From the IMG/VR virus record IMGVR_UViG_3300025767_000119, positions 1 to 25,061 of that record: DNA of 25,061 nt; one strand, written 5' to 3'. The notes below the pieces were generated by a model. The model had not been told where the DNA came from. It saw only the letters and a list, made by a program, of their open reading frames with translations, and made no database searches. The DNA comes from a virus. Positions within the stretch are counted from its first letter, which is position 1. Every line of letters begins with the position of its first letter. The position numbers and the translations under genes were made by a program. Positions 13,613 through 25,061 of the stretch are shown piece after piece.

Positions 13613-14391
13613 TTTATAAAGGTGCAAACGTCCTTAACGAACATAAGAGAAAGAATCTTATGTACGACGGACAACTAGAACAGATTACCTTTTTAGATAA
13701 ACGAGTCTACAAGAAAGAAGAAGGAGTATACTACCCTTCAGTTACTACCGTTTTACAGTACATGCCAAAGAATAAGTTCTTTGATAACTGGCTAAAAGAC
13801 GTAGGCCACAATGCCGACCTTATCATGAGAAAAGCAGCTCAAGAAGGTACTGCTGTTCATGAAGCTGTAGAAGATTTGATAGCAGGAAAAGAGATTACTT
13901 GGATGGATGACTTTGGGAATGCTAAGTACAATCTTAGAGTATGGCAGATGATCTTGAAAGCAGCAGAGTTCTTCAAGAAGCATAAACCAACCGTTATTGC
14001 TGCTGAAGAGTTTACCTTCTCAGATAAATACAAGTATGCAGGTACTGCCGATTTGATTGTAGAGATGGATGGAGAGATCTGGTTACTTGATGTTAAGACG
14101 TCTAACAACCTTCACCGTTCTTACGACTTGCAATTAGCAGCTTACGCTAAAGCCTGGGAAGAGATGTTCGGTCAAAAGATCGAAAGAACTGGTATCTTAT
14201 GGCTGAAATCTTCTAAGAGATCAGAATCTAAGAAAGAAGGAGTTTACCAAGGTAAGGGATGGGAGATTAAGCAGATTGGAGACATCGATAAAAACTTTGA
14301 CCTCTTTAAGACTATTTACAGTCTATACGAATTAGATAACCCGACTACCGAACCTATTTATAATAGTTACCCTATCAAAGTGAAACTATGA
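13609..14391 (+). CDS. PD-(D/E)XK exonuclease, RecB/Cas4-like
   Basis: A 260-aa nuclease of the PD-(D/E)XK superfamily. Motifs are complete and in order: TAVHEAVEDL with H84, the Glu pair E133-E134 in AAEEF, GTADLI with D148, LLDVKTS with D161 and K163, and QLAAYA with Q175 and Y179. The last motif is the Q-xxx-Y signature of RecB/Cas4-type nucleases. I see no Fe-S cysteine cluster of the Cas4 kind. It overlaps the primase gene by 4 nt and the kinase-like gene by 4 nt, so it may act in replication, recombination or end processing of phage DNA. A candidate late promoter for the next gene lies inside its 3' end. Confidence 0.85.
   Translation: MIYKGANVLNEHKRKNLMYDGQLEQITFLDKRVYKKEEGVYYPSVTTVLQYMPKNKFFDNWLKDVGHNADLIMRKAAQEGTAVHEAVEDLIAGKEITWMDDFGNAKYNLRVWQMILKAAEFFKKHKPTVIAAEEFTFSDKYKYAGTADLIVEMDGEIWLLDVKTSNNLHRSYDLQLAAYAKAWEEMFGQKIERTGILWLKSSKRSESKKEGVYQGKGWEIKQIGDIDKNFDLFKTIYSLYELDNPTTEPIYNSYPIKVKL
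14354..14364 (+). promoter_or_regulatory. Candidate late promoter element (CTATTTATWAK), copy 3, inside the nuclease gene
   Basis: CTATTTATAAT lies within the last codons of the PD-(D/E)XK nuclease gene, 34 nt before the ATG of the P-loop kinase gene. Codons there could have been chosen freely, yet the full 11-nt consensus is present at the same distance from a start as the intergenic copies. If real, it would allow the enzyme cassette 14388-18386 to be made late, separately from the primase/nuclease pair. Confidence 0.4.
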
Positions 14392-15374
14392 AATTAATCG
14401 AAGCTTTACTCCAAGAAGCAAGAGTCCCTAAAGCTATTATTATGGGAGGTGGAGCAGGTGCCGGTAAAACGCACTTAGCTGGACAGTTTATAAAAATAGC
14501 AGAAGAAAATGGATGGCAATACCTTAACCCGGATACTTACGCAAGAAACCCGGATAAAGAAAAGAGATTACCTCTATCATCAGCCTCTAAAAAGATCAAT
14601 CAAGAACTTGAAGACGCTGTCACTGGAGACGCTAAACCAAACTTAGTATGGGATACTACAGCAAGTAATCCAAACGCAGTTCTAGGAGTAAAGCAAAACG
14701 GCTACAACGTTCTAATGATTATGGTGTACGCTCATCCAATGGCTGCTTTCCAATCTAATTTTGAGAGAGCAGATAAAGAAGGAGAAGCTGCGATACCGAC
14801 ACAGGGAGTATTCGCTACCTGGTTAAAATCATACAACCCAGAAAACATTGAAGCATATAAGAAAGCTTTCGGAGATAATTTCTTACTAGTAAACAATACC
14901 TCTAAACCAGGTATTGATATGAAGCTTATTGAAGACTTCAACCAAGCAGTTCAAGCAGGTCCAAAAGCAATACAGAAGTATATTGAAGACTTAGTAGCAG
15001 AACATCCTGACAAATATCAGCAGACAATGTTCGATAGAGGTGAAGTAAAGTTACCTCCTGAAGCAGCTGAAGCATTCACAGCAGGTATAGCACAAGCGAG
15101 TATCACTTTCCAAGACGAGAGAGAAGAGGACAATCTTAAGAAAGCAGCTTTAAAGTATTTCGAAAAGAAAGGCGAGCCAATGCCCCCGGCAAAGATTGGA
15201 AGAACTAACGGAATGGAAGAAACCTTAGAAACTCTTCGTAAAAAAGCAAAAGCAGCACAAGAGACTAAGCAAAGAATGTATGTAGAATTACATGCAGCTT
15301 TATCAAAAGTAATCTCTGCTGACTCTACAATTGACGAAGCAGTAGATAGAGCAAAAGCATTTATTGAATCATGA
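14388..15374 (+). CDS. Zeta-toxin-like P-loop kinase with N-terminal capsid-targeting-like peptide
   Basis: A 328-aa protein. A clear Walker A, GGGAGAGKTH (residues 20-29), is followed by LNPDTYARN with D49 and VWDTTASNPNAV (D89), the layout of zeta-toxin/polynucleotide-kinase-type P-loop phosphotransferases. The C-terminal part is Lys/Glu-rich helix. The first residues MKLIEALLQEAR look very like the T4 capsid-targeting peptide of internal proteins, and LLQE-A fits the (L/I)xxE prohead-protease site. This suggests, as inference, packaging in the head and injection. The substrate could be a nucleotide sugar, a nucleic-acid end or a small nucleotide. It overlaps both neighbours by 4 nt (ATGA). 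The kinase-type fold is secure and the substrate is not. Confidence 0.78.
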   Translation: MKLIEALLQEARVPKAIIMGGGAGAGKTHLAGQFIKIAEENGWQYLNPDTYARNPDKEKRLPLSSASKKINQELEDAVTGDAKPNLVWDTTASNPNAVLGVKQNGYNVLMIMVYAHPMAAFQSNFERADKEGEAAIPTQGVFATWLKSYNPENIEAYKKAFGDNFLLVNNTSKPGIDMKLIEDFNQAVQAGPKAIQKYIEDLVAEHPDKYQQTMFDRGEVKLPPEAAEAFTAGIAQASITFQDEREEDNLKKAALKYFEKKGEPMPPAKIGRTNGMEETLETLRKKAKAAQETKQRMYVELHAALSKVISADSTIDEAVDRAKAFIES

Positions 15375-17230
15375 AGATAGGAATTCTAGGAGGAGGGTTT
15401 AAACCTCCACATAAAGGACATTTTGATTTAGCTAAACAAGCTTTTGATCACGGTATTTCTGAATTGAGAATTTACATAGGACCGAAAGCAAGATCAGGAG
15501 CTAATATTACTCAGGATCAAGCTGTAGAGATCTGGCAAGAATACGCTAAAGCACTACCTGGGAAAGTAGTACTAGAAAAACATCCCATACCTATCCGTGC
15601 TCCGTATACTTTTGCAAGAGAGAATCCCGATCATGAGGTACTATGGTTTCTAGGTCAAAGAGAAGGAGACGAAGAAGATACTAAAGATATTAAGAGTAGA
15701 ACTTCATCTCTACGTAAAGATAGAGAAAAACCTGAAGAAGAACAGAAGTATCCAAACCTAGACTTTCAACCTATCTCCGGAAGAACTACAGTATCAGGTA
15801 CTGCTGCACGACAAGCACTACAAGCAGGAGATAAAGAAGGCATTGCAGATATGCTACCAGACGGAATAGATAAGGAAAAAGTACTAGGAATAATCCAGTC
15901 CCCAGAAACTAAGATAGCAGAAGCTATTGACAATATTTTTGCAGGATTTTTATTCGAAGAAGATGAAGTAGAAGAAGGTTCTGGAGGGGTACCTATTGAT
16001 GCTATTGGAGCAGTACCATCGAAGGATAAAGCTAAAATGGATAATAGGTTTGAATACTTTATGAAACTCACTCCTCCGGATATGGTAATATCTAGAAGAG
16101 GAATGGAAATTATCATTACAGATAAAAAGTACGCAGAAGGACCTAACGCTGAAGCTGAAGATCTTACACCTACTCAGAATCAACTACCTGAATCAGTGGA
16201 AGAGACTAGGTTCAACTATACTCCGTATATTGCTTCAATCTTAGAGTACTGTATAGACAGGAAACTGAAAGTGCTTCCTCTACCAGAGATTAAGATTAAG
16301 TACGATGAAGAAAATGCATCTAACTTATTTGGACGTACAGGATATTATCAACCACAGACCTGTGAGATCTGTTTGTACGCCTCAGGACGTCACCCTAAAG
16401 ATGTATTAAGAAGCTTCTGCCACGAACTCATCCATCACATTCAAAACATGGAAGGGAAGGACTTAGAGTTCACAACTACCGATGTGCATGCTGATGAAGC
16501 ATTAATGGAGATTGAAAAAGAAGCTCACTCTAAAGGCAGTCTACTATTTAGAGAATGGGAGAATGCTCAGAAAGAGCAAGAATCTATCGAAGAAAAAAAA
16601 AGTTTAACTGAGAAGAGAGGCAGGTTAAATCCTATCTCGAATAAACTCTCTTCGATCGCCTTTAAAATCATTAAAACTGCTTACGAAAAAGGAAAGACTA
16701 TTGACCATACGTTAATGATCGGTCCTTACGAAGATGCTGATATTCAATTAGAAGACTTAGAATTTGATCTTAGAATTATCCTACGTAAAGGAGATTACAA
16801 CTACACAGGAGGAGCTGATTCAGGACAAGTAACAGAAGACGATCCTTATGTGGAGGTAGTAGTTACATTACCAGAAGATTATACTAACTGGTCTGAACTA
16901 TCCATGCACTTAAAAGATCTTATTAGACATGAGATCGAACATCTCAAGCAAGGTGGAATCAATGTAAGAAGTGGTGGCGAGATGGAAGACGATGCTCTAA
17001 TCAGATCTCTAATTAATATAGGTAATATCCCAGAAAAAGAATACTACAAACTACCTAAAGAAGTAGACGCTATGATCCAGGGGCTATATTTCCAAGCTCA
17101 GAAATCAAGAAGACCTTTTATAGAGGTAGCAAAAGAATACCTAGAAAGTCAAGGAGTTAGTTTGAAAGATCAAGAAGAAATCTTATCTTTATGGACCAAA
17201 AGACTACCTGCACTAGGAATTAATTTATAA
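15371..17230 (+). CDS. Fusion: nucleotidyltransferase plus two HExxH metallopeptidase-like domains
   Basis: A 619-aa multidomain protein. Residues 1 to about 165 are a cytidylyltransferase/NMNAT-type domain: GGGFKPPHKGH at 7-17 (the HxGH site, H14 and H17) and the C-terminal SGTAARQAL motif. A middle segment (GVPIDAIGAVPSKDKAKM) links to a first zinc-peptidase-like domain with HELIHH at 351-356 and a downstream EIEKEA that could supply the third ligand. A second domain has HEIEH at 520-524, followed by KLPKEVDAMIQGLYFQ, again with a candidate Glu ligand. It could adenylylate or cytidylylate a small molecule or protein and cleave host proteins. It overlaps the kinase gene by 4 nt, and the reading frame is unbroken across the domains, so this is a true fusion in this sequence. 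Confidence 0.75.
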   Translation: MKIGILGGGFKPPHKGHFDLAKQAFDHGISELRIYIGPKARSGANITQDQAVEIWQEYAKALPGKVVLEKHPIPIRAPYTFARENPDHEVLWFLGQREGDEEDTKDIKSRTSSLRKDREKPEEEQKYPNLDFQPISGRTTVSGTAARQALQAGDKEGIADMLPDGIDKEKVLGIIQSPETKIAEAIDNIFAGFLFEEDEVEEGSGGVPIDAIGAVPSKDKAKMDNRFEYFMKLTPPDMVISRRGMEIIITDKKYAEGPNAEAEDLTPTQNQLPESVEETRFNYTPYIASILEYCIDRKLKVLPLPEIKIKYDEENASNLFGRTGYYQPQTCEICLYASGRHPKDVLRSFCHELIHHIQNMEGKDLEFTTTDVHADEALMEIEKEAHSKGSLLFREWENAQKEQESIEEKKSLTEKRGRLNPISNKLSSIAFKIIKTAYEKGKTIDHTLMIGPYEDADIQLEDLEFDLRIILRKGDYNYTGGADSGQVTEDDPYVEVVVTLPEDYTNWSELSMHLKDLIRHEIEHLKQGGINVRSGGEMEDDALIRSLINIGNIPEKEYYKLPKEVDAMIQGLYFQAQKSRRPFIEVAKEYLESQGVSLKDQEEILSLWTKRLPALGINL

Positions 17231-17233
17231 TAT

Positions 17234-17845
17234 ATGCAACAAAGCTTAATAGACTTATTCGAAGTTACTAAAGATGATCTTAACCCTGATCGAAAAAACC
17301 TGCGTTTATATTGCGATATGGACGGAGTACTGTGTGATTTTAGAGGTAGGTTTGAAGACCTATTCGGAAGAGGTCCTAGAGAGGTAGAGGCAGATAAAGG
17401 AGCTCCATACTTTTGGGCGATGATTCGAAATGTCGGAGTTAAGTACTGGTCAAGAATGCCATGGACCCCAGGAGGTAAAACCTTATGGAGTGCTATCAAA
17501 GAATATGAACCTAAACTACTCACAGCTCCCCCTCGAAAGAAAGGAGATTTCCACGCATTAGATCCAATTACAATGCAAGGAAAGACAGAGTGGGCAGAAA
17601 GTAATCTAAATCTATCTGCATCTGATATCGTATTTAAGAAATCTAAGGACAAGAAACTAATCGCTCAACAAGATGTAGCGAATGGATTAATACCAATCCT
17701 TATTGATGACAGAGAAGACAACATTGCAGGATGGGAAGCAGCAGGCGGGGTAGGTATACTTCACCCAGAAAACGGTAATCCATCTGAAGTTATAAAGAAG
17801 ATAAAAGAGTTATATGAAGGAGAATCAACTCAAGAAGGAGTTTAA
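17234..17845 (+). CDS. HAD-superfamily phosphatase (5'-nucleotidase-like)
   Basis: A 203-aa HAD hydrolase. Motif I is YCDMDGVLCDF (nucleophile D28, acid D30), motif II is LLTAPP (T97), motif III is in KKSKDKKLIA (about 135-144), and motif IV is ILIDDREDN (D158, D159). The layout resembles small deoxyribonucleotidases and the phosphatase half of T4 polynucleotide kinase. An N-terminal extension MQQSLIDLFEV precedes the domain and has the amphipathic character seen in neighbouring proteins. It lies 3 nt after the nucleotidyltransferase/peptidase gene and overlaps the next gene by 32 nt. Together with the upstream P-loop kinase it recreates the kinase-plus-phosphatase pairing of end-healing enzymes, but nucleotide salvage is equally possible. 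Confidence 0.82.
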   Translation: MQQSLIDLFEVTKDDLNPDRKNLRLYCDMDGVLCDFRGRFEDLFGRGPREVEADKGAPYFWAMIRNVGVKYWSRMPWTPGGKTLWSAIKEYEPKLLTAPPRKKGDFHALDPITMQGKTEWAESNLNLSASDIVFKKSKDKKLIAQQDVANGLIPILIDDREDNIAGWEAAGGVGILHPENGNPSEVIKKIKELYEGESTQEGV

Positions 17846-18386
17846 GACCCGGGACGTTGAAAGAGCTCGAAATATAGTCAAGAAAGACTACACTAGTAAA
17901 ACTGTAGCTGGAACAGGTTATAAGAAACAGAGAGAGAAGCATAGTGAAGGAGATACCTGGGAAGAAGACGGGAAGACTTGGACTATAAAGAACGGTATTA
18001 GACAAACTATAACTAAGTTAGATGCTGCTAAAAAAGCAGCTCAAGTACCGTTAAAATGTCCTAAGTGTAGCGGACCGATGAATTACCATCTAAGTAAGAA
18101 GATGTATAAGATTCATAAGATGTGCTTTGACTGTGTTATAGATATGGAAGCAGGATTACGTCGAGCAGGATTATACGATGCTTATGAAAAAGCAATGGTT
18201 ACTGGAGGTATCCGAGCATTTGCAAAAGATATTGAACAGTGGGTTTTAGAGGCATATGAGAGTGAAAACTACGTTACAGAAGACGGAGTTGTCGAAGAAT
18301 GGAATTCAAATGATCAAGCAAAGCAACGTGCTTTAGCCAACGTAAAGGAGTTTATAGACCATGTAAACGAGTCATTAGAAGAGTAG
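17814..18386 (+). CDS. Zinc-ribbon-like conserved phage protein, unknown function
   Basis: A 190-aa protein. A Lys/Arg-rich N-terminus (EFKTRDVERARNIVKKDY) is followed by a small strand motif GDTWEEDGKTWTIKNGI and then a probable zinc site made of C82-P-K-C85 and C104-F-D-C107. The C-terminal half is acidic helix. I associate this architecture with proteins found in many marine T4-like phages, but I know of no established function. DNA- or RNA-binding is a reasonable guess from the basic N-terminus and zinc knuckle. The start lies 32 nt inside the HAD gene; a later start would lose the conserved-looking basic region, so I keep it. A promoter-bearing gap follows. Confidence 0.72.
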   Translation: MKENQLKKEFKTRDVERARNIVKKDYTSKTVAGTGYKKQREKHSEGDTWEEDGKTWTIKNGIRQTITKLDAAKKAAQVPLKCPKCSGPMNYHLSKKMYKIHKMCFDCVIDMEAGLRRAGLYDAYEKAMVTGGIRAFAKDIEQWVLEAYESENYVTEDGVVEEWNSNDQAKQRALANVKEFIDHVNESLEE

Positions 18387-18387
18387 G

Positions 18388-18398
18388 CTATTTATTAG
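18388..18398 (+). promoter_or_regulatory. Candidate late promoter element (CTATTTATWAK), copy 4
   Basis: CTATTTATTAG starts 2 nt after the upstream stop codon and 36 nt before the ATG at 18424. It fits the six-site consensus. The intervening leader is AT-rich (TATACTG, then ACAAAAAATACT) with no Shine-Dalgarno. Confidence 0.45.
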
Positions 18399-18423
18399 TA
18401 TACTGTTTCTTACAAAAAATACT

Positions 18424-18795
18424 ATGACTCAGAAAGAATTGCTAGAAAATGTATTAAGTGAGCTAGGTTCCATTAAAAAGGGAATGCCTAACGGAGAGCT
18501 TAAACACATGGCAAGAACTATAGACGAACTAAGAGATAATCAATCACTAATGAAAGACGATATCTCAGATTTAAAAAAGACGTTATTAGATCCTAACGAC
18601 GGAGTCATTGTGAACACTAATAAGAACACAGACTTCAGACGAGAGCGTGAACGTAAGATTGAGTACTACGACAATATTATCGTAGAATTCAAAAAAATGC
18701 AAGACTGGAAAAACGGCGTCACAAGAGCATTATGGATCGTATTCACAGTATTAGCAGGAATTATTATTAAGTTTTTAGCCGAAATGCAACCGTGA
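18424..18795 (+). CDS. Tail-anchored membrane protein with coiled coil (XhlA/holin-accessory-like)
   Basis: A 123-aa protein with a helical, charged N-terminal part (ELLENVLSELG, then a heptad-like ARTIDELRDNQSLMKDDI), a basic middle (DFRRERERKIEY), and a single C-terminal membrane segment at about residues 100-118 (ALWIVFTVLAGIIIKFLA). The shape, an N-terminal coiled coil and C-terminal anchor, is that of XhlA-type lysis-associated proteins, but it also fits a membrane-docked virion or takeover protein. It is the first gene after a candidate late promoter, and its stop overlaps the GTG start of the next gene. Lysis function is a guess from topology. Confidence 0.68.
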   Translation: MTQKELLENVLSELGSIKKGMPNGELKHMARTIDELRDNQSLMKDDISDLKKTLLDPNDGVIVNTNKNTDFRRERERKIEYYDNIIVEFKKMQDWKNGVTRALWIVFTVLAGIIIKFLAEMQP

Positions 18796-19010
18796 ATAAG
18801 ATAGATAAGAAATACGGCATCGGCACAACAGCTCTAATGAGAGATGTACTGCAGGAGATGGTTAGAAAGATCTTAGCAGAAAAGAAGAGGCCTGGACTCT
18901 GGGCTAATATTAATGCTAAGAAAAAGAGAGGTGAGAAAGCTTCTCACGGTAACTCTAAGGCACATAAAGATGCAGTAGCAGCTGGTAAGAAGATTAAGAA
19001 AAGTAGCTGA
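18792..19010 (+). CDS. Small basic protein with GTG start, unknown function
   Basis: A 72-aa, strongly basic protein. It starts with GTG inside GTGA, overlapping the upstream stop by 4 nt. An N-terminal helix (LMRDVLQEMVRKILAEKKR) resembles the amphipathic leaders of neighbouring proteins, with LQE and LAE steps. The rest (PGLWANINAKKKRGEKA, then SHGNSKAHKDAVAAGKKIKK) is Lys/Gly-rich and probably nucleic-acid-binding. The PGLWANINAKKKR stretch is a pattern I recall from many phage proteins without a known role. It might be a DNA-condensing internal head protein. The next possible short ORF starts in its stop codon (TGATG). Confidence 0.65.
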   Translation: MNKIDKKYGIGTTALMRDVLQEMVRKILAEKKRPGLWANINAKKKRGEKASHGNSKAHKDAVAAGKKIKKSS

Positions 19011-19087
19011 TGAAGTTTCCTATTCCATTTTCACCGGAGAAGAACTACGCCAGGGGATGTAGGAGATCAAATATAATGTTTTTGTAG
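19010..19087 (+). CDS. Possible 25-residue ORF overlapping the previous stop (TGATG)
   Basis: A short open frame starts at the ATG formed by the upstream TGA (TGATG) and runs 25 codons to a TAG. Its product is basic and contains SPEKNYARGCRRSNI. The stop-start overlap is the same device used by real neighbours, but the length gives little statistical support. It may be a small peptide, or the remnant of a longer gene. It occupies most of the 93-nt gap before the next clear gene. A TATAAT at 19072-19077 is also present in this gap. Confidence 0.22.
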   Translation: MKFPIPFSPEKNYARGCRRSNIMFL

Positions 19088-19103
19088 TTTCCATTATACA
19101 GCT

Positions 19104-19319
19104 ATGACCAGAGGAGAATTAACAGAGATTATAAAAGAAGTACTTGTAGAGATGCAAGAAGCTGAAAGTGTACATAAGCCAATGAATCCCGGTATATTGA
19201 AGAACCGGTTAGGTAAATTATCTTGCACTAAAGTGAGGAAAGAGCGTGGTAAACTTAAAGACAAAGGTACTACGTTCGCAAAAGCTTTACAAAGATACCT
19301 TAACTACCATTGCAAATAA
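19104..19319 (+). CDS. Small basic protein with amphipathic N-terminus, unknown function
   Basis: A 71-aa protein. Residues 1-20 form an amphipathic, acidic helix (RGELTEIIKEVLVEMQEAE) with an (L/I)xE step, LVE, that could be a prohead-protease site. The remainder is basic (PGILKNRLGKLSCTKVRKER) and ends in ALQRYLNYHCK with a conserved-looking NYHC. I recall similar short proteins from marine phages but no assigned function. The acidic leader plus basic body is what an internal head protein would look like. It is preceded by a 93-nt gap with no CTATTTAT motif and followed by copy 5 of that motif immediately after its stop. Confidence 0.68.
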   Translation: MTRGELTEIIKEVLVEMQEAESVHKPMNPGILKNRLGKLSCTKVRKERGKLKDKGTTFAKALQRYLNYHCK

Positions 19320-19330
19320 CTATTTATTAG
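19320..19330 (+). promoter_or_regulatory. Candidate late promoter element (CTATTTATWAK), copy 5
   Basis: CTATTTATTAG begins directly after the TAA of the upstream gene, 30 nt before the ATG at 19350. It fits the six-site consensus. A second partial copy, CTATTTCTA (about 19335), follows within the leader. Confidence 0.45.
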
Positions 19331-19349
19331 AAACTATTTCTATAGAATT

Positions 19350-20345
19350 ATGACTTACGAAGAATTACAGAACAGGTTAAGTAGAGTTGAGACAGCTATC
19401 ACAGCTCTAAAAACTGGTAGTTATCACGATCTAGATTTTAATGTAGAGCAGACTCTCGGACAATTAGAGCATACAAAAACAGCTTTACAAGAACAGCTAA
19501 GCACTCTATCAGAGGATAAGGAACCAGAGCACCTACTAAAGCCATTAGAAAAGAAAATCGATAAAGCAGTAGATAAGCAAAAAGCATCACCAGATACTGC
19601 AGCATTAGCTTTATTAGCAAACATCAATAAAAATGTAGCTTTAGACCATAATATCACCTTTAAAACCTGGACTGATGATTTAAGAGCTCATGCTCCACAA
19701 GTTGTAAACAGATTAAAAGCAGCATTAGAAGGTAAGTTTAAATATTACGGAGACCTATTAGATGTAGATTATGCAGGATTAGAGAGAGAATTAGAGAAAG
19801 CAGAGTACACCGGTACTAGAAGCTTACCTGATAACACAGCTGCATTAAAAGCTTTGATGATCAAGAAAGTAGAAGAAGGTGAGACAACAGATAGCCACGT
19901 TATCACTAAAGATCAAACATCTAGAAGAGAAGTAGAAAAGGTAGCGAGAGAGAAAGGAGTATCTACTCCAGAATTTAAGAAGAAGGTACAGAACGCTAAA
20001 CCAGGTGATACGTTTAATCTAGAGGAAGATCACCAACACAATCCAAACGACGATTCAGATATGGCTAAGATTCAATTACTACAAGTAGCTGAGTATGCTC
20101 ATGAATTGTTAGAAATGATTAAGAACGGTCAAGAATTGGATGCTTGGATTCAAGCTAAGATTACTAAGATTGCTGATTACATCGGAACAGTAAAACATTA
20201 TTTAGAAGGAGAAGAGTACTTAGATGCTGAGTACGGTAAAGATCATCCAGCACACGGCGACTCAAATTTCTATAACGATATCCCAGAAGAATATAAAGCA
20301 ATGTATGAATCATGGGTAGCTTCTCAAAAGACGATCAATGAATAA
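19350..20345 (+). CDS. Helical protein with C-terminal QLLxVAEYAxEL module, probable virion/head-associated
   Basis: A 331-aa, strongly helical, charged protein. Residues 1 to about 75 are coiled-coil-like (LSRVETAITALKTG, then LGQLEHTKTALQEQLSTL). The middle contains TDSHVITKDQTSRREVEKVA. Near residues 236-290 is a compact helical module (QLLQVAEYAHELLEMI, then LDAWIQAKITKIADYIGTVK and HYLEGEEY) that I recall as a recurring segment in structural or unknown proteins of marine T4-like phages. There is no catalytic motif. A scaffold or internal head role is plausible given the preceding candidate late promoter, the position just upstream of terminase and portal, and the acidic helical composition. 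It overlaps the next gene by 8 nt. Confidence 0.7.
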   Translation: MTYEELQNRLSRVETAITALKTGSYHDLDFNVEQTLGQLEHTKTALQEQLSTLSEDKEPEHLLKPLEKKIDKAVDKQKASPDTAALALLANINKNVALDHNITFKTWTDDLRAHAPQVVNRLKAALEGKFKYYGDLLDVDYAGLERELEKAEYTGTRSLPDNTAALKALMIKKVEEGETTDSHVITKDQTSRREVEKVAREKGVSTPEFKKKVQNAKPGDTFNLEEDHQHNPNDDSDMAKIQLLQVAEYAHELLEMIKNGQELDAWIQAKITKIADYIGTVKHYLEGEEYLDAEYGKDHPAHGDSNFYNDIPEEYKAMYESWVASQKTINE

Positions 20346-20835
20346 GCAAGAGATTAGACAATTACTAGAAGAAGTTTACTTTGAAGTATTAGAGGAAAAC
20401 TTACTTAAAGAGGATACTCTAAAGACATCTACTCAGATGATCTTAGGAAAGTTTCCTACATTACGAGATACTATTGAAAAACTCTTAACAAAAGAGTACG
20501 ATCATTTTATTGACGAGATTCATTGGGTATCTCCTAAACCCTCTACCTTTAAGGTACAGTTTAAGAGTGGTCAGTCATTCATCTTAAAGTGGTTAGGAAA
20601 AGGATTTCAAGCACAAGTAGAGGGCAAGAGATTCTTTCTCAACAACGTATCTGAATATCAATCAGCACTAGATAGAATCAACGAACTATTAAAGAACGGC
20701 CCTGTTAGTGCTGCTGATGAATTCGGAGAAGATGAAGGATTTGATGACTCTGGAGCATTTGACTCAGAACCATCAGCAGATTCAGGAACAACAGACGCTG
20801 AAGGAGAAGACGTATTTGACACAGGAGAAGAGTAG
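20338..20835 (+). CDS. Protein with amphipathic N-terminus and acidic C-terminal tail, unknown function
   Basis: A 165-aa protein in three parts. The first is an N-terminal amphipathic helix (KQEIRQLLEEVYFEVLEENL). The second is a folded middle of about 90 residues with beta strands (STFKVQFKSGQSFILKWLG). The third is a low-complexity acidic tail from about residue 125 made of Asp, Glu, Ser, Gly and Ala. Such tails are common in DNA mimics and scaffold-like proteins, but nothing here fixes the function. The start overlaps the upstream gene by 8 nt; the stop is one base before the ATG of the next gene. Confidence 0.7.
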   Translation: MNKQEIRQLLEEVYFEVLEENLLKEDTLKTSTQMILGKFPTLRDTIEKLLTKEYDHFIDEIHWVSPKPSTFKVQFKSGQSFILKWLGKGFQAQVEGKRFFLNNVSEYQSALDRINELLKNGPVSAADEFGEDEGFDDSGAFDSEPSADSGTTDAEGEDVFDTGEE

Positions 20836-20836
20836 T

Positions 20837-21802
20837 ATGGAGTTGATCGATAAGATTTTACAGGAATGGTCTTGGAGAACTGAGAAAGGATACCCCGATC
20901 TTAATAATGAAGAAGATCTTAAGATACTGAGAGAAGTTTTTGATATTGATCTTGTTAACGAAGCTGATAACAGCTCTTTCGACGCTATTATAGAAGAGAC
21001 TTTCAAAGAAAGTATCCCCGCAGTAAAAGGAAAGTACAGATTACCAGAAGCAACCTCAGAATTTAAAATCGACAGTGCCGATCAAGAAGCATTTAAAGCA
21101 CTCTTTTACAAAGCACCTGATAAGAGTGTAGGAAACGGAGAGGTAGCTTTATACTGGTTGTTTAATTACGCTAACCCAAAGAACCCAGCCGATAGAGCTA
21201 AAGAGAATAGAGGAGCAGATGATCCTGACCTACTGGTGGATGGAAGCGGTCTTGAAGTTAAATCTTATAATTCACATGATAAAAAGAGTACTTTAGGTAA
21301 ATTTAAGAGTGATGTTGAATCGAGAAAGTTAATAAACGCTCTCTTCGGTATTACGAACATGTATAAGGTATTCGGAGAAGAAGGTTCTTTTAATTCTGAA
21401 GTAGTATTTAATATGGCGATCTTACGAGACGCTTTTCAGGAAGTACTTAATATTCAAAAGATCTTTGCAGAAGATAATGTCAGGGAAGTTTTAGGATCGT
21501 ATGCCGTATTTGCAGATATGCAAAAACAGGTTAACACCTTGCTAAGTATGGTAGAATCTAAAGATCCTGAAGAGTTAGCGAAAAAGGTAATGGTAACGTT
21601 ACTTAAGACAAAGCTTGAGAAAAAGCCCGGAGCCGGTAACTACATTATAAACTTAAAAGAAAGTAACCCATTTGACATCAAGGTATTTAGAATACCTGAA
21701 GATATTGAAGGAGGGTTGATGGAGAAGTCTTTCGAACACTTAGCAAAAAACACAGCAGTTAACTCTGCAGAGATTCAATTTAAGTACAGTATATTTGATT
21801 AA
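20837..21802 (+). CDS. PD-(D/E)XK nuclease-like protein
   Basis: A 321-aa protein. I place the start at 20837, one base after the upstream stop, rather than at an ATG further upstream (20708) that would need a 128-nt overlap through the acidic tail of the neighbour. The N-terminus (MELIDKILQEWSWRTEKGYP) again has the amphipathic LxE step. A nuclease-type core is visible: GEVALYWLF with E102, then ADDPDLLVDGSG (P130, D131) and LEVKSY (E140, K142), matching PD-x8-ExK. The following TLGKFKSDVESRKL and the C-terminal domain are unassigned. It might be a virion-borne or host-DNA-degrading nuclease. Six bases separate it from the membrane-protein gene pair. Confidence 0.68.
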   Translation: MELIDKILQEWSWRTEKGYPDLNNEEDLKILREVFDIDLVNEADNSSFDAIIEETFKESIPAVKGKYRLPEATSEFKIDSADQEAFKALFYKAPDKSVGNGEVALYWLFNYANPKNPADRAKENRGADDPDLLVDGSGLEVKSYNSHDKKSTLGKFKSDVESRKLINALFGITNMYKVFGEEGSFNSEVVFNMAILRDAFQEVLNIQKIFAEDNVREVLGSYAVFADMQKQVNTLLSMVESKDPEELAKKVMVTLLKTKLEKKPGAGNYIINLKESNPFDIKVFRIPEDIEGGLMEKSFEHLAKNTAVNSAEIQFKYSIFD

Positions 21803-21807
21803 CAAAT

Positions 21808-22152
21808 ATGAAATTAAAGGTTAATAATTTAATGGTTCTAGTAGCAGTAGCAATTGCTGCAATGTATGCTTTCGGTTTACTCACTCCAATGAATAACAGA
21901 GCTAAGGAGAAGTTAGACGCTTATATAGAAAAGAGTCAAGCAGTAGTAGATTCCTTAGAGAACCATATTACTCTATTAGACATAGAGAATGATATGTTAC
22001 AGTCACAAGTCGACAGTGCTTTAGCTGCTATTGGTATTGAGGAAGAAAAACGTAAACAACAAAGAGATGCATTCGATCGTAAAATTGCTAAGCTTAATAA
22101 GCTTTCTGCTTCTGAGCTTTCCAGCTATTTCACAGAACGTTATAGTAAATAA
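21808..22152 (+). CDS. Membrane-anchored coiled-coil protein, candidate inner-membrane spanin
   Basis: A 114-aa protein with one N-terminal membrane segment (about residues 8-26, LMVLVAVAIAAMYAFGLL) after two Lys residues, which predicts a cytoplasmic N-terminus and periplasmic body. Residues 33-98 are a long charged coiled coil (AYIEKSQAVVDSLENHITLL), and the end carries SASELSSYFTERY. This is the topology of Rz-type inner-membrane spanins. The following gene starts inside it in another frame with an 85-nt overlap, another spanin-like feature. Spanin function is inferred from topology and arrangement; a structural tail-anchored role cannot be excluded. Confidence 0.65.
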   Translation: MKLKVNNLMVLVAVAIAAMYAFGLLTPMNNRAKEKLDAYIEKSQAVVDSLENHITLLDIENDMLQSQVDSALAAIGIEEEKRKQQRDAFDRKIAKLNKLSASELSSYFTERYSK

Positions 22153-22483
22153 CGGCGATACTTTAGTTTGCATTCCCTCAAAGATTGCAAAAGAAATTAT
22201 TACTGATCTAGAACAAGGAGACCTCTGTCAAGCAGAGTTAGAAAGTTACTTAAGAGACATTCAAAGTCTTAATCAAGCAATGACTGCTAAAGACGGTCAG
22301 ATCGCCAATCTCATTGGTATTAAAAACAACCTCAATGGCGTCATTGACGAAAAGAATAGTCAAATAGAAAAGCAAAAGAAGTACCAAGCTACCTTAAGAA
22401 GACAGCGCAAATGGAATCTATATAAAGGCTGGATGGGAGGTACAGTCGTAGGAACTGTTATTGGAATAATTATAATGTTATGA
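22067..22483 (+). CDS. Secreted coiled-coil protein with C-terminal membrane segment, candidate spanin partner
   Basis: From the ATG at 22067 the product is 138 aa. It starts with a signal-peptide-like stretch (MHSIVKLLSLISFLLLSF, then PAIS-Q as a likely signal peptidase I site), continues as a periplasmic coiled coil (about residues 40-108) with two Cys (36 and 53), and ends in a hydrophobic segment (WMGGTVVGTVIGIIIML) preceded by basic RRQRKW. An upstream ATG at 22031 would add 12 charged residues and spoil the signal peptide, so I prefer 22067. It lacks a lipobox Cys, so it is not a classical Rz1, but a protein tethered at its C-terminus and exported at its N-terminus could bridge the envelope with the upstream gene product. 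The stop overlaps the terminase start (ATGA). Confidence 0.62.
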   Translation: MHSIVKLLSLISFLLLSFPAISQNVIVNNGDTLVCIPSKIAKEIITDLEQGDLCQAELESYLRDIQSLNQAMTAKDGQIANLIGIKNNLNGVIDEKNSQIEKQKKYQATLRRQRKWNLYKGWMGGTVVGTVIGIIIML

Positions 22484-24057
22484 GTCAACAAGACGTAAAA
22501 AAGATTATCATACAGGAGTACGCTAAGTGTGCAAAGGATCCCGAGTACTTCATGAAGAAGTATTGCTACATCCAGCACCCACAGAGAGGCCGTATCTTAT
22601 TTAACCTGTATCCATTCCAAGGAAAGGTACTACATTTATTTAAGGATCATCAATTTCTTATTACTCTTAAGTCTAGGCAGTTAGGTATTTCTACTTTAGC
22701 AGCAGGGTATAGTCTATGGTTAATGATCTTTCATAAGGATAAAAACGTCCTTGCTCTTGCAACTACTCAAGCTACAGCTCGAAACTTAGTAAACAAGGTA
22801 CAGTTTATGTACAAAGAGCTTCCGAGCTGGCTAAGATTGAAAGCAGTAGAAGACAACAAACTGTCCTTAAGACTCACAAACGGTTCAAGAATATCTGCTA
22901 AATCTTCTAATTCAGATGCAGCACGTTCAGAAGCAGTATCACTACTGCTTATTGATGAGGCAGCATTTATTGACAATATTGACGAAACGTTTGCAGCAGC
23001 TCAACAAACACTAGCTACTGGAGGTCAATGTATGGCTCTATCAACTCCTAACGGTATTGGTAACTGGTTCCACCAGACTTGGGAAAAAGCTGAAACTGGA
23101 GAAAATAGTTTCATACCAATTAAGCTACCGTGGACAGTACATCCTGAAAGAGATCAAACTTGGAGAGACCAACAGGATAGAGACCTAGGTCCTAGAATGG
23201 CTGCTCAAGAATGTGACTGTGACTTCTTATCATCAGGTGATACAGTATTTGAACCAGAAGATCTTATCTACATGGAGACTACTACTAAAAAGGATCCAAT
23301 AGAAAGAAGAGGTGTGGACAGTAACTTATGGATATGGGAATACCCAGACTACATGAAATCTTATATGGTCGTAGCTGATGTCGCTAGAGGTGATGGACAG
23401 GATTTTTCTACCTTCCACGTTTTTGATATTGAAGCCTCTTGTCAAGTAGCAGAGTTTAGGAGTAAGATCCCTCCTAAAGAATTCGGAAACATATTGGTAG
23501 GGATATCCACAGAGTACAATAACGCTCTATTAGTAGTAGAGAATGCATCTATTGGATGGGCTACTATCGACCAGATTATTACTAGAGAATATTCAAACCT
23601 ATATTACTCATCTAAATCAGATCAAGAGACCGTACAATCGTATATGTCTAAGTTTGAGAACGATAAACTAGTACCTGGATTCTCTATGACAGCACGCACT
23701 CGTCCATTAGTTATCGCTAAGATGATGGAGTACATAAGAGAGAAAGCCGTTACTGTTCAATCAGATAGGCTCTTAAAAGAGATGAGGGTATTTGTATGGA
23801 AGAACGGTAAAGCACAGGCACAGACAAGTTATAATGATGATTTAGTAATGGCATTTGCTACCGGCCTATACGTTAGAGATACAGCTCTACGACTAAGGCA
23901 GCAAGGAATGGATTTAGCTAGAGCTCAACTATCCTCATTTAATAACCTAAATAATCGCAACTCCGCTATAATAAATGTTGCTAATACGCAAAATAATCCG
24001 TATATTATAGATAATGGATCCGGTACCCAAGAGGATATATCTTGGTTATTTAAGTAA
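22480..24057 (+). CDS. 17: Large terminase subunit, gp17-like
   Basis: A 525-aa packaging motor (T4 gp17 is about 610 aa). The ATPase half has an adenine-binding region YPFQGKVLHLF, a Walker A of the form KSRQLGIST (residues 64-72), a Walker B LLLIDEAAF with D159 and E160, and the coupling motif STPNG (188-192). The nuclease half has VVADVARGDG with D300, VVENASIGW with E354, and NDDLVMAF with D453/D454, corresponding to the T4 catalytic Asp-Glu-Asp. The Walker A lacks the usual Lys before S/T (Ile70 in its place), so Lys64 or Arg66 may take over. It cuts concatemers and drives DNA into the prohead through the portal encoded next door. It overlaps the upstream gene by 4 nt. Confidence 0.95.
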   Translation: MSQQDVKKIIIQEYAKCAKDPEYFMKKYCYIQHPQRGRILFNLYPFQGKVLHLFKDHQFLITLKSRQLGISTLAAGYSLWLMIFHKDKNVLALATTQATARNLVNKVQFMYKELPSWLRLKAVEDNKLSLRLTNGSRISAKSSNSDAARSEAVSLLLIDEAAFIDNIDETFAAAQQTLATGGQCMALSTPNGIGNWFHQTWEKAETGENSFIPIKLPWTVHPERDQTWRDQQDRDLGPRMAAQECDCDFLSSGDTVFEPEDLIYMETTTKKDPIERRGVDSNLWIWEYPDYMKSYMVVADVARGDGQDFSTFHVFDIEASCQVAEFRSKIPPKEFGNILVGISTEYNNALLVVENASIGWATIDQIITREYSNLYYSSKSDQETVQSYMSKFENDKLVPGFSMTARTRPLVIAKMMEYIREKAVTVQSDRLLKEMRVFVWKNGKAQAQTSYNDDLVMAFATGLYVRDTALRLRQQGMDLARAQLSSFNNLNNRNSAIINVANTQNNPYIIDNGSGTQEDISWLFK

Positions 24058-24086: not shown

Positions 24087-25061
24087 ATGGCGGACAAATC
24101 TCTATTTGGCAGATTACAGCGATTATTCGCTACAGACGTAGTAATCAGGAACGTTGGTGGTAACCAGCTTAAGATTGCTGACGTTAATCAGATTCAGACT
24201 ACTGGAAAGTATCAGACGAATTCCTTGATGGATAGATTCTCTCGTCTATACATCTATAACAATAAGAATATCTTTAATCCGAACCTTAACTATCAGACGT
24301 TAAGAATTCAATTATACTCGGATTACGAAGCGATGGACACAGATCCAATTATCTCTTCTACTCTAGATATTATTGCAGATGAAGCAACGTTGAAGAACGA
24401 TACCGGAGACATGTTAACGGTAAAGTCATCTGATGAGAATATTCAAAAGATCCTCAACAACCTATTTTACGACGTCCTCAACATTGAGTTTAACTTATGG
24501 TCATGGACTCGTCAAATGTGTAAGTACGGGGATTTCTTTTTGAAATTAGAAATCGCAGAAGACTTTGGAGTATACAATGCACTTCCATATACCGTGTACC
24601 ACATGGTACGTCATGAAGGACAGGATCCTGAAGAGCCTACCAAAGTACAATTCTCAATCGATCCAGATGGTTTAGCATCATCTGCAGATCCAAACTTCAT
24701 GCCTAAGTCTAACAAAAAAGTTATCCACTTAGACAACTATGAAGTTGCTCACTTCAGATTAATCTCTGATACTAACTACCTGCCATACGGTAGATCATTT
24801 ATCGAACCTGCTAGAAAGATCTTCAAGCAGTTGACGTTAATGGAAGATGCGATGTTAATTCACCGTATCATGAGAGCTCCTGAGAAGAGAGTCTTTTATG
24901 TAAACGTTGGTCAGATCCCTCCTACAGAGGTTGAGCAGTTTATGCAAAAGACTATCAACCAGATGAAGAAGACTCCTTATGTTGATCCACAAACCGGTCA
25001 ATATAACCTCAAGTTCAATATGCAGAACATGATGGAGGACTTCTACCTACCAGTAAGAGGT
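24087..25061 (+). CDS. 20: Portal protein, gp20-like (partial, runs off the window)
   Basis: The first 325 codons of a T4 gp20-type portal (T4 gp20 is about 524 aa); the frame is open to the window's last base. The start is the ATG in CCGTAAATGGCGG, giving MADKSLFGRLQRLF. Family features include YSDYEAMDTDPIISSTLDIIADE, NLWSWTRQMCKYGDFFLK, YEVAHFRLISDTNYLPYGRS and the conserved RIMRAPEKRVFYVNVGQIPP. The dodecameric portal sits at the unique head vertex, nucleates prohead assembly, and is the docking site for the terminase encoded just upstream. It follows a 29-nt gap with a candidate late promoter. Confidence 0.95.
   Translation, partial: MADKSLFGRLQRLFATDVVIRNVGGNQLKIADVNQIQTTGKYQTNSLMDRFSRLYIYNNKNIFNPNLNYQTLRIQLYSDYEAMDTDPIISSTLDIIADEATLKNDTGDMLTVKSSDENIQKILNNLFYDVLNIEFNLWSWTRQMCKYGDFFLKLEIAEDFGVYNALPYTVYHMVRHEGQDPEEPTKVQFSIDPDGLASSADPNFMPKSNKKVIHLDNYEVAHFRLISDTNYLPYGRSFIEPARKIFKQLTLMEDAMLIHRIMRAPEKRVFYVNVGQIPPTEVEQFMQKTINQMKKTPYVDPQTGQYNLKFNMQNMMEDFYLPVRG

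Follow-up and report, generated by a model that had tools for sequence, protein, structure and literature searches.

Candidate capsid-targeting leaders on enzymes and small proteins encoded beside the terminase gene of a T4-like phage related to Flavobacterium phage immuto

We analysed the whole of IMG/VR virus record IMGVR_UViG_3300025767_000119, a 25,061-base virus fragment (hereafter the window), for short N-terminal leaders on the proteins encoded between positions 14388 and 21802; these genes, like terL, the portal gene and the gene at 38-406, lie on the + strand. The window comes from a T4-like phage whose nearest described relative is Flavobacterium phage immuto. Encoded on it are gp25- and gp6-type baseplate proteins, a primase, an exonuclease, the terminase large subunit (terL, gp17; 22480-24057; 73% identical to its immuto counterpart) and the first part of the portal protein (gp20; 24087-25061), whose gene is truncated by the end of the record. 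Synteny supports the relationship: in immuto the corresponding block lies directly upstream of terL, with genes for the prohead protease, the scaffold and a gp23-type capsid protein just downstream, and the protease, scaffold and major capsid protein (MCP) genes are expected to come next in the window phage. A sequence-only reading of the window had noticed amphipathic N-termini containing (L/I)xE on six otherwise unrelated proteins, and had proposed that they are capsid-targeting tags on an injected set of proteins that includes enzymes. Because such a pattern within one window is merely suggestive, we moved the comparison to relatives from IMG/VR, taking 80 loci anchored on terL and 76 anchored on the kinase gene described next.

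The gene at 14388-15374 encodes a zeta-type P-loop kinase-like protein of 328 aa with the leader MKLIEALLQE/ARVPKAIIMGGGAGAGKT (a slash marks the predicted cut throughout), which is encoded by 14388-14417 and which we place in class A. Pfam assigns the body to Zeta_toxin (PF06414, 2.4e-9, 37.4 bits against a cut-off of 22.3), and the top PDB fold matches of its AlphaFold model are zeta/PezT structures (1gvn, 3q8x, 2p5t), with modest TM-scores of 0.33-0.43; as modelled, the protein has the zeta-toxin fold and a P-loop, and kinase activity is predicted. The leader forms a separate helix in the model (residues 2-11), ahead of a strand at 15-21, and M(I/V)KLxxLLxE is kept in 63 kinase homologues, followed by a variable linker and then the P-loop strand. 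As in the T4 capsid-targeting sequence (CTS), hydrophobic residues stand at positions 4, 7 and 8 and glutamate at 10 (I4, L7, L8, E10/A11). Set against T4 internal protein II (IPII), MKTYQEFIAE/ARV, the kinase N-terminus MKLIEALLQE/ARV agrees at positions 4, 7, 8, 10 and P1'. In T4, positions 4 and 7 matter for targeting, and 8 and 10 for processing (PMC9026906), so the likeness to the T4 sequence that had been claimed for these N-termini holds, in the kinase, at every position important in T4. Class-A starts occur in 84 of the 802 genes of the terL-anchored loci (0.1-0.3 expected) and on 11 body families, which include the N-terminus of the MCP itself (MELNSLLNES). We also observed loci in which the leader-bearing kinase is apparently fused to a second enzyme domain (L086:9983-13321, L087:3917-7144, L145:9998-11329, L138:5022-6353), yielding proteins of about 1,100 aa that are NMNAT-like by position, or of 443 aa with NT5C; there a single leader would carry two enzymes.

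The kinase gene is followed by one for a 619-aa protein that combines an NMNAT-like nucleotidyltransferase with a putative metallopeptidase (15371-17230) and is without a leader; its homologues elsewhere include some that bear a leader (MKSLVKSLITPFLAE/...) and some that are fused behind a leader-bearing kinase. The next gene (17234-17845), a candidate overlooked by the sequence-only reading, encodes an NT5C-like 5'(3')-deoxyribonucleotidase of 203 aa (phrog_2643, 1.3e-24) with the leader MQQSLIDLFE/ (17234-17263), and its relatives begin MNTSIVDLLE, MGKLADLLLTE and MIKLTDILNE. NT5C proteins of the cargo module carry an N-terminal extension with LxE, whereas those outside it (compared in phages phiM9, Cr30, Atu_ph07, OLIVR1, CcrRogue, phiXF1 and Phosso) start directly at the catalytic strand. 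Some phages with leaderless NT5C also have the T4 gp21-type (S77) prohead protease, and therefore the leader follows the module and not the protease alone. The order kinase-NMNAT-NT5C recurs in Pelagibacter phage HTVC008M, whose kinase is homologous to that of the window (E 1e-9).

Three smaller proteins of the block also bear leaders, all of which, like the window's other leaders apart from that of the kinase, belong to longer classes that likewise end in (L/I/V)xE. For the small basic protein (18792-19010), comparison with relatives gives a leader ...LMRDVLQEMVRKILAE/ followed by KKRPGLWANINAKKKRGEKASHGNSKAHK; the start is GTG 18792 or ATG 18837, the leader accordingly 18792-18881 or 18837-18881, and the relatives read MHAFMRDLIREVLTE/EKPGLWANIRAKRARGEK and MKNFKQALKELQE/EKPGLWANIRAKRARGEK. 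The 71-aa protein at 19104-19319 has the class-B leader MTRGELTEIIKEVLVE(MQE)/, encoded by about 19104-19160, and a body (PGILKNRLGKLSCTKVR...ALQRYLNYHC) in common with immuto 191 (71% identity). The N-terminal half of immuto 191 is different and longer, yet it too starts with a class-B leader, and other relatives have other leaders. The leader MNKQEIRQLLEEVYFEVLEE of the 165-aa protein at 20338-20835 reappears within the fused 841-aa immuto 192, at the joint between modules.

In immuto, the class-B leader of these last two proteins takes the form MKKSQLRQIIKEAL and related sequences, borne by several unrelated proteins, and a scan of IMG/VR with a class-B DNA pattern returned at least 120 stretches with at least 144 genes, in which the leader MKKSELRQIIKEE..LNE stands on at least 93 unrelated body clusters; a codon-scrambled control of the pattern gave 0 matches in IMG/VR. 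Among the matches listed, [VIAL]LxE, which the search did not fix, falls within residues 13-24 in 43 of 93 clusters (shuffled 5.5, maximum 13), and conservation collapses right after E20. Six class-B leader genes lie close together in one contig (L274). The 20-residue leader gave one weak match only in a tblastn search against isolates, and a Pfam search with ten class-B bodies returned no significant family. A further leader, class C (FDLKKFLVEN), occurs in 18 of the 802 genes of the terL-anchored loci, distributed over 10 families, where 0 are expected.

The last gene of the block (20837-21802), beside terL, encodes a PD-(D/E)XK-type protein of 321 aa and marks a site at which payloads are swapped among relatives. 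The peptide MELIDKILQEW reported by the sequence-only reading is present here, with the start at ATG 20837, right after the stop of the 20338 gene, and not at GTG 20708. The leader, MELIDKILQEWSWRTEKGYPDLNNEEDLKILREVFDIDLVNE/, is about 42 aa long (20837-20962; class E), and these first residues are common to 86 relatives whose bodies fall in eight unrelated families; [LIVF]xE occurs at residues 35-52 in 87/87 terL-adjacent proteins, against a background of 0.26. E102, D131, E140 and K142 are invariant in 13 divergent sequences of the 20837 family, as is P130 in the 9 closest, so that the PD-(D/E)XK residues are present as E102, PD131 and E140-x-K142. Several other terL-adjacent body families show PD-(D/E)XK-like motifs, judged by eye. 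The model of the 20837 protein (moderate confidence) had no significant PDB match and the protein no Pfam match, and a Pfam search with the terL-adjacent bodies of ten relatives returned no significant family.

The leaders are associated with the S77 protease. Among the class-B matches listed, S77 was found in 29 of 38 contigs of at least 30 kb (14/15 among those of at least 100 kb, 15/23 among those of 30-100 kb), compared with 1/15 contigs for a control pattern of the same form that resembles a signal peptide (P = 4e-6). It is present in immuto and in 22/23 large contigs of relatives; S78 proteases were found in 0/23 contigs. In 7 of the 14 S77-encoding contigs of at least 100 kb among the matches listed, a class-B leader lies within 5 kb of the protease gene (1.0 expected, P = 5e-5). 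In three leader- or kinase-bearing contigs, L145 (G019), L254 (G057) and L263 (G059), the S77 gene itself contains 1-3 in-frame TGA codons, which suggests phages in which TGA codes for an amino acid.

Two further links lead to the capsid protein and the scaffold. The im199 family, a small core protein encoded beside the protease, has the leader ...ELNE/MSTTGTGASFSPG and continues MSTTGTGASFSPGxGEQYATP, which is similar to the sequence ANTTGTGGTFTAGxGEQWAGV that follows the MCP propeptide ...KQIVAE/ANTTGTGGTFTAG. This likeness after the predicted cut suggests that one kind of cleavage site closes both a class-B leader and the propeptide of a bona fide capsid precursor. The motif RMQKLAGI(I) marks the C-terminal tail of the scaffold: 45/45 of its C-terminal occurrences belong to scaffold proteins, with the MCP gene usually next. 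Class-D leaders are that same tail, extended to FLKMQKLAGLITE/S (ending ITE/S) and placed N-terminally on at least 57 unrelated body clusters, with S77 in 11/14 class-D contigs among the matches listed; class D does not occur in the window. Since a leader class is the scaffold tail, the comparison suggests that leaders may act as mimics of the termini by which core proteins come together, docking being putative. A few copies of the tail are embedded in long proteins, in many cases with NE ahead of them, as though they divided modules, and the motif NE/SFLKMQKLAGxITE was seen at C-termini (L412, L407, L447, L450) as well as inside proteins (L233, L389); such copies are possibly C-terminal propeptides or module separators.

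A leader-bearing enzyme of a related kind has been detected in virions. Proteomics found an NMNAT/cytidylyltransferase (T4-GC190), of the same superfamily as the window's 15371 protein, in virions of cyanophages S-SM1 (PMC3037559), S-SCSM1 (PMC9602691) and S-CREM2 (PMC10665884); the available text of these papers makes no mention of a leader on it. These enzymes begin MKKFSAFLNE/A, MKSFLQFLKE/A and MKNFSSFLTE/A, respectively, and thus carry a T4-type leader, whereas the window copy has none. No other annotated gene start, in all of S-SCSM1 and in parts of S-SM1 and S-CREM2, matched the T4-CTS pattern. The 69-aa S-SCSM1 virion protein S-SCSM1_93 (L318:31627-31836) ends in KRTFKEFLEYIE, which resembles a T4-type CTS placed at the C-terminus.

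We rejected the idea that all genes of the operon carry tags: 15371, 17814, 18424 and 19350 lack one, or at least a clear one. The conserved companion protein at 17814-18386 (190 aa; 61% identity to immuto 185 along its full length) is probably untagged, judging by its alignment. The XhlA/hemolysin-like membrane protein at 18424-18795 (phrog_937) is conserved from residue 1 along its full length and its N-terminus is therefore not a separable leader, so that ELLENVLSELG, the sixth example of the sequence-only reading, is probably a false positive. With spanin-like genes at 21808-22152 and 22067-22483 it places lysis-type genes amid head genes. The 331-aa head-region protein at 19350-20345 has no clear leader; its (D/E)AWxQAKxTKxxDY domain occurs once there and recurs in immuto 192 (L001:19007-21532). 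Outside the block, the product of the gene at 38-406, just upstream of gp25, does have the look-alike N-terminus MKVDALKKLIKEAVREAIKEEL for which it had been cited, but it is a candidate only, sitting beside gp25/gp6 tail genes and with one recognisable homologue, immuto 157.

All the peptides quoted in the sequence-only reading exist, and aligning N-termini across related phages, a check it had proposed, showed the leader conserved among homologues, with differing bodies behind it, for five of the six proteins named. Leader conservation, the IPII match, the presence of leaders on unrelated bodies, the links to S77 and to the scaffold tail, and a T4-type leader on a cyanophage virion enzyme detected by mass spectrometry together make its central proposal, capsid targeting with cleavage after (L/I)xE, well supported by inference from comparison. 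Most probably the leaders are propeptides that direct proteins to the capsid and that the S77 protease removes by cutting after LxE, and delivery of the cargo to the host is likely; for the window phage itself, we infer docking, cutting, virion presence and delivery. In the mechanism we propose, each leader would dock its protein into the prohead core during head assembly, probably by mimicking the termini with which core and shell proteins assemble, one related leader class being the scaffold C-terminal tail and another resembling the MCP N-terminus. The T4 gp21-type protease would then cut after (L/I)xE, and the cut cargo would stay in the head alongside the DNA, for delivery at infection. 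The cargo of the window would comprise the zeta-fold kinase-like protein, the NT5C-type deoxyribonucleotidase, the PD-(D/E)XK-type protein, the small basic protein and two small proteins, and the predicted enzymes among them agree with what had been anticipated.

We consider it highly probable that these N-terminal helices are removable capsid-targeting leaders, cut after (L/I)xE by S77, with the cargo delivered at infection. Several points weigh against this. The record stops short of the genes for protease, scaffold and MCP; some leader-bearing genes (e.g., immuto 3, 40, 41 and 103) are distant from the head genes; and a literature search found no virion proteomics or N-terminal peptides for the window phage, immuto or close relatives. 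The window's NMNAT-like protein, whose class is the one detected in virions, lacks a leader and resembles the S-SM1 enzyme only remotely, the likeness being limited to a signature motif, and the cyanophage authors do not exclude co-purification (PMC10665884). One could instead regard the tagged proteins as structural or scaffolding parts of the prohead core, many of them lost at maturation, with the leader an assembly element and nothing delivered. This is unlikely, but has points in its favour: scaffold, protease, MCP and gp67/68-position proteins of the same block also have LxE sites, most T4 core proteins are degraded (PMC9026906), and small proteins such as 19104 are without an enzymatic domain. 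Against it, folded enzyme-like proteins whose active-site residues are conserved occur among the cargo, leaders persist as the bodies behind them are exchanged, as in T-even internal proteins, and a leader-bearing enzyme was found in mature cyanophage virions.

It is improbable that the leader is an uncut address or regulator of another sort (membrane or replication-compartment targeting, a degron, or adaptor binding). Short amphipathic helices may play many roles, some tagged genes lie outside the head block, and cleavage is predicted from sequence; but the S77 association stands against a matched control, the leaders end at LxE, where conservation stops, one class is the scaffold tail, and one shares its post-cut sequence with the MCP. 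Chance, by which amphipathic N-termini with L/I and E would simply be common in AT-rich, E/K-rich proteins, has very little probability, and for the set as a whole is contradicted. The leader-type pattern occurs in 6/10 block proteins against 1.2 expected when the same residues are shuffled (0/2000 shuffles reach 6), and the signal is not reproduced by shuffles, by internal-Met controls or by the scrambled pattern. In favour of chance, the block differs only marginally from the rest of the window (6/10 vs 4/18, P = 0.057), terL itself matches by accident and 18424 is a false example; for gene 38 and 18424 chance is a possible explanation. Position-specific scores over all immuto N-termini show the head block to be modestly enriched (8/35 vs 10/204, P = 0.0014), and only modestly because the leaders fall into several classes.

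If the leaders do target capsids, a short N-terminal sequence would predict which "hypothetical" proteins of T4-like phages are carried by the virion and are the first to act in the host, would give testable functions to dozens of orphan families, would supply new tags, defined by sequence, for directing proteins into phage heads, and would account for the entry of enzymes such as NMNAT into cyanophage heads. How leaders are recognised, an old question, would become directly testable because one leader class is the scaffold's own tail. We lean slightly towards a broader view, in which T4-type phages that infect many aquatic bacteria use a modular loading code: several interchangeable leader classes, at least some of them derived from head-core termini (the scaffold tail, the N-terminus of the capsid protein), would stand on many unrelated proteins, giving each virion a large and fast-changing set of injected effectors, with a swap site beside terL for divergent PD-(D/E)XK-type proteins. 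In the literature searched, which was without subscription journals, we found neither the class-B and class-D leader strings nor a paper extending the T4 CTS to such protein sets.

Among known systems, the SPN3US-type ejection (E) proteins of giant phages are a large head-packed set cut by a prohead protease (abstracts of PMC5694885 and PMC7411985); they belong to another phage lineage and are likened here by description, not by sequence. T4 Alt, an injected ADP-ribosyltransferase with a short gp21-cut N-terminal propeptide (PMC9026906), is likewise a leader-loaded enzyme, but the enzyme families differ and no Alt homologue was seen here. The closest parallel is the gp21-cut CTS of T4 IPI-III: in both the leader is some 10 residues long, hydrophobic at 4, 7 and 8, with Glu at 10 and then A or S, both place a conserved leader on unrelated bodies, and S77 occurs in the relatives. 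Whereas the T4 internal proteins comprise three or four bodies, here there are several leader classes of 10 to about 42 residues on dozens of bodies, along with enzymes, tandem arrays and one leader that duplicates the scaffold tail. The mechanism is already known from T4; what appears new is the tag classes, the size of the set and the reuse of the scaffold tail.

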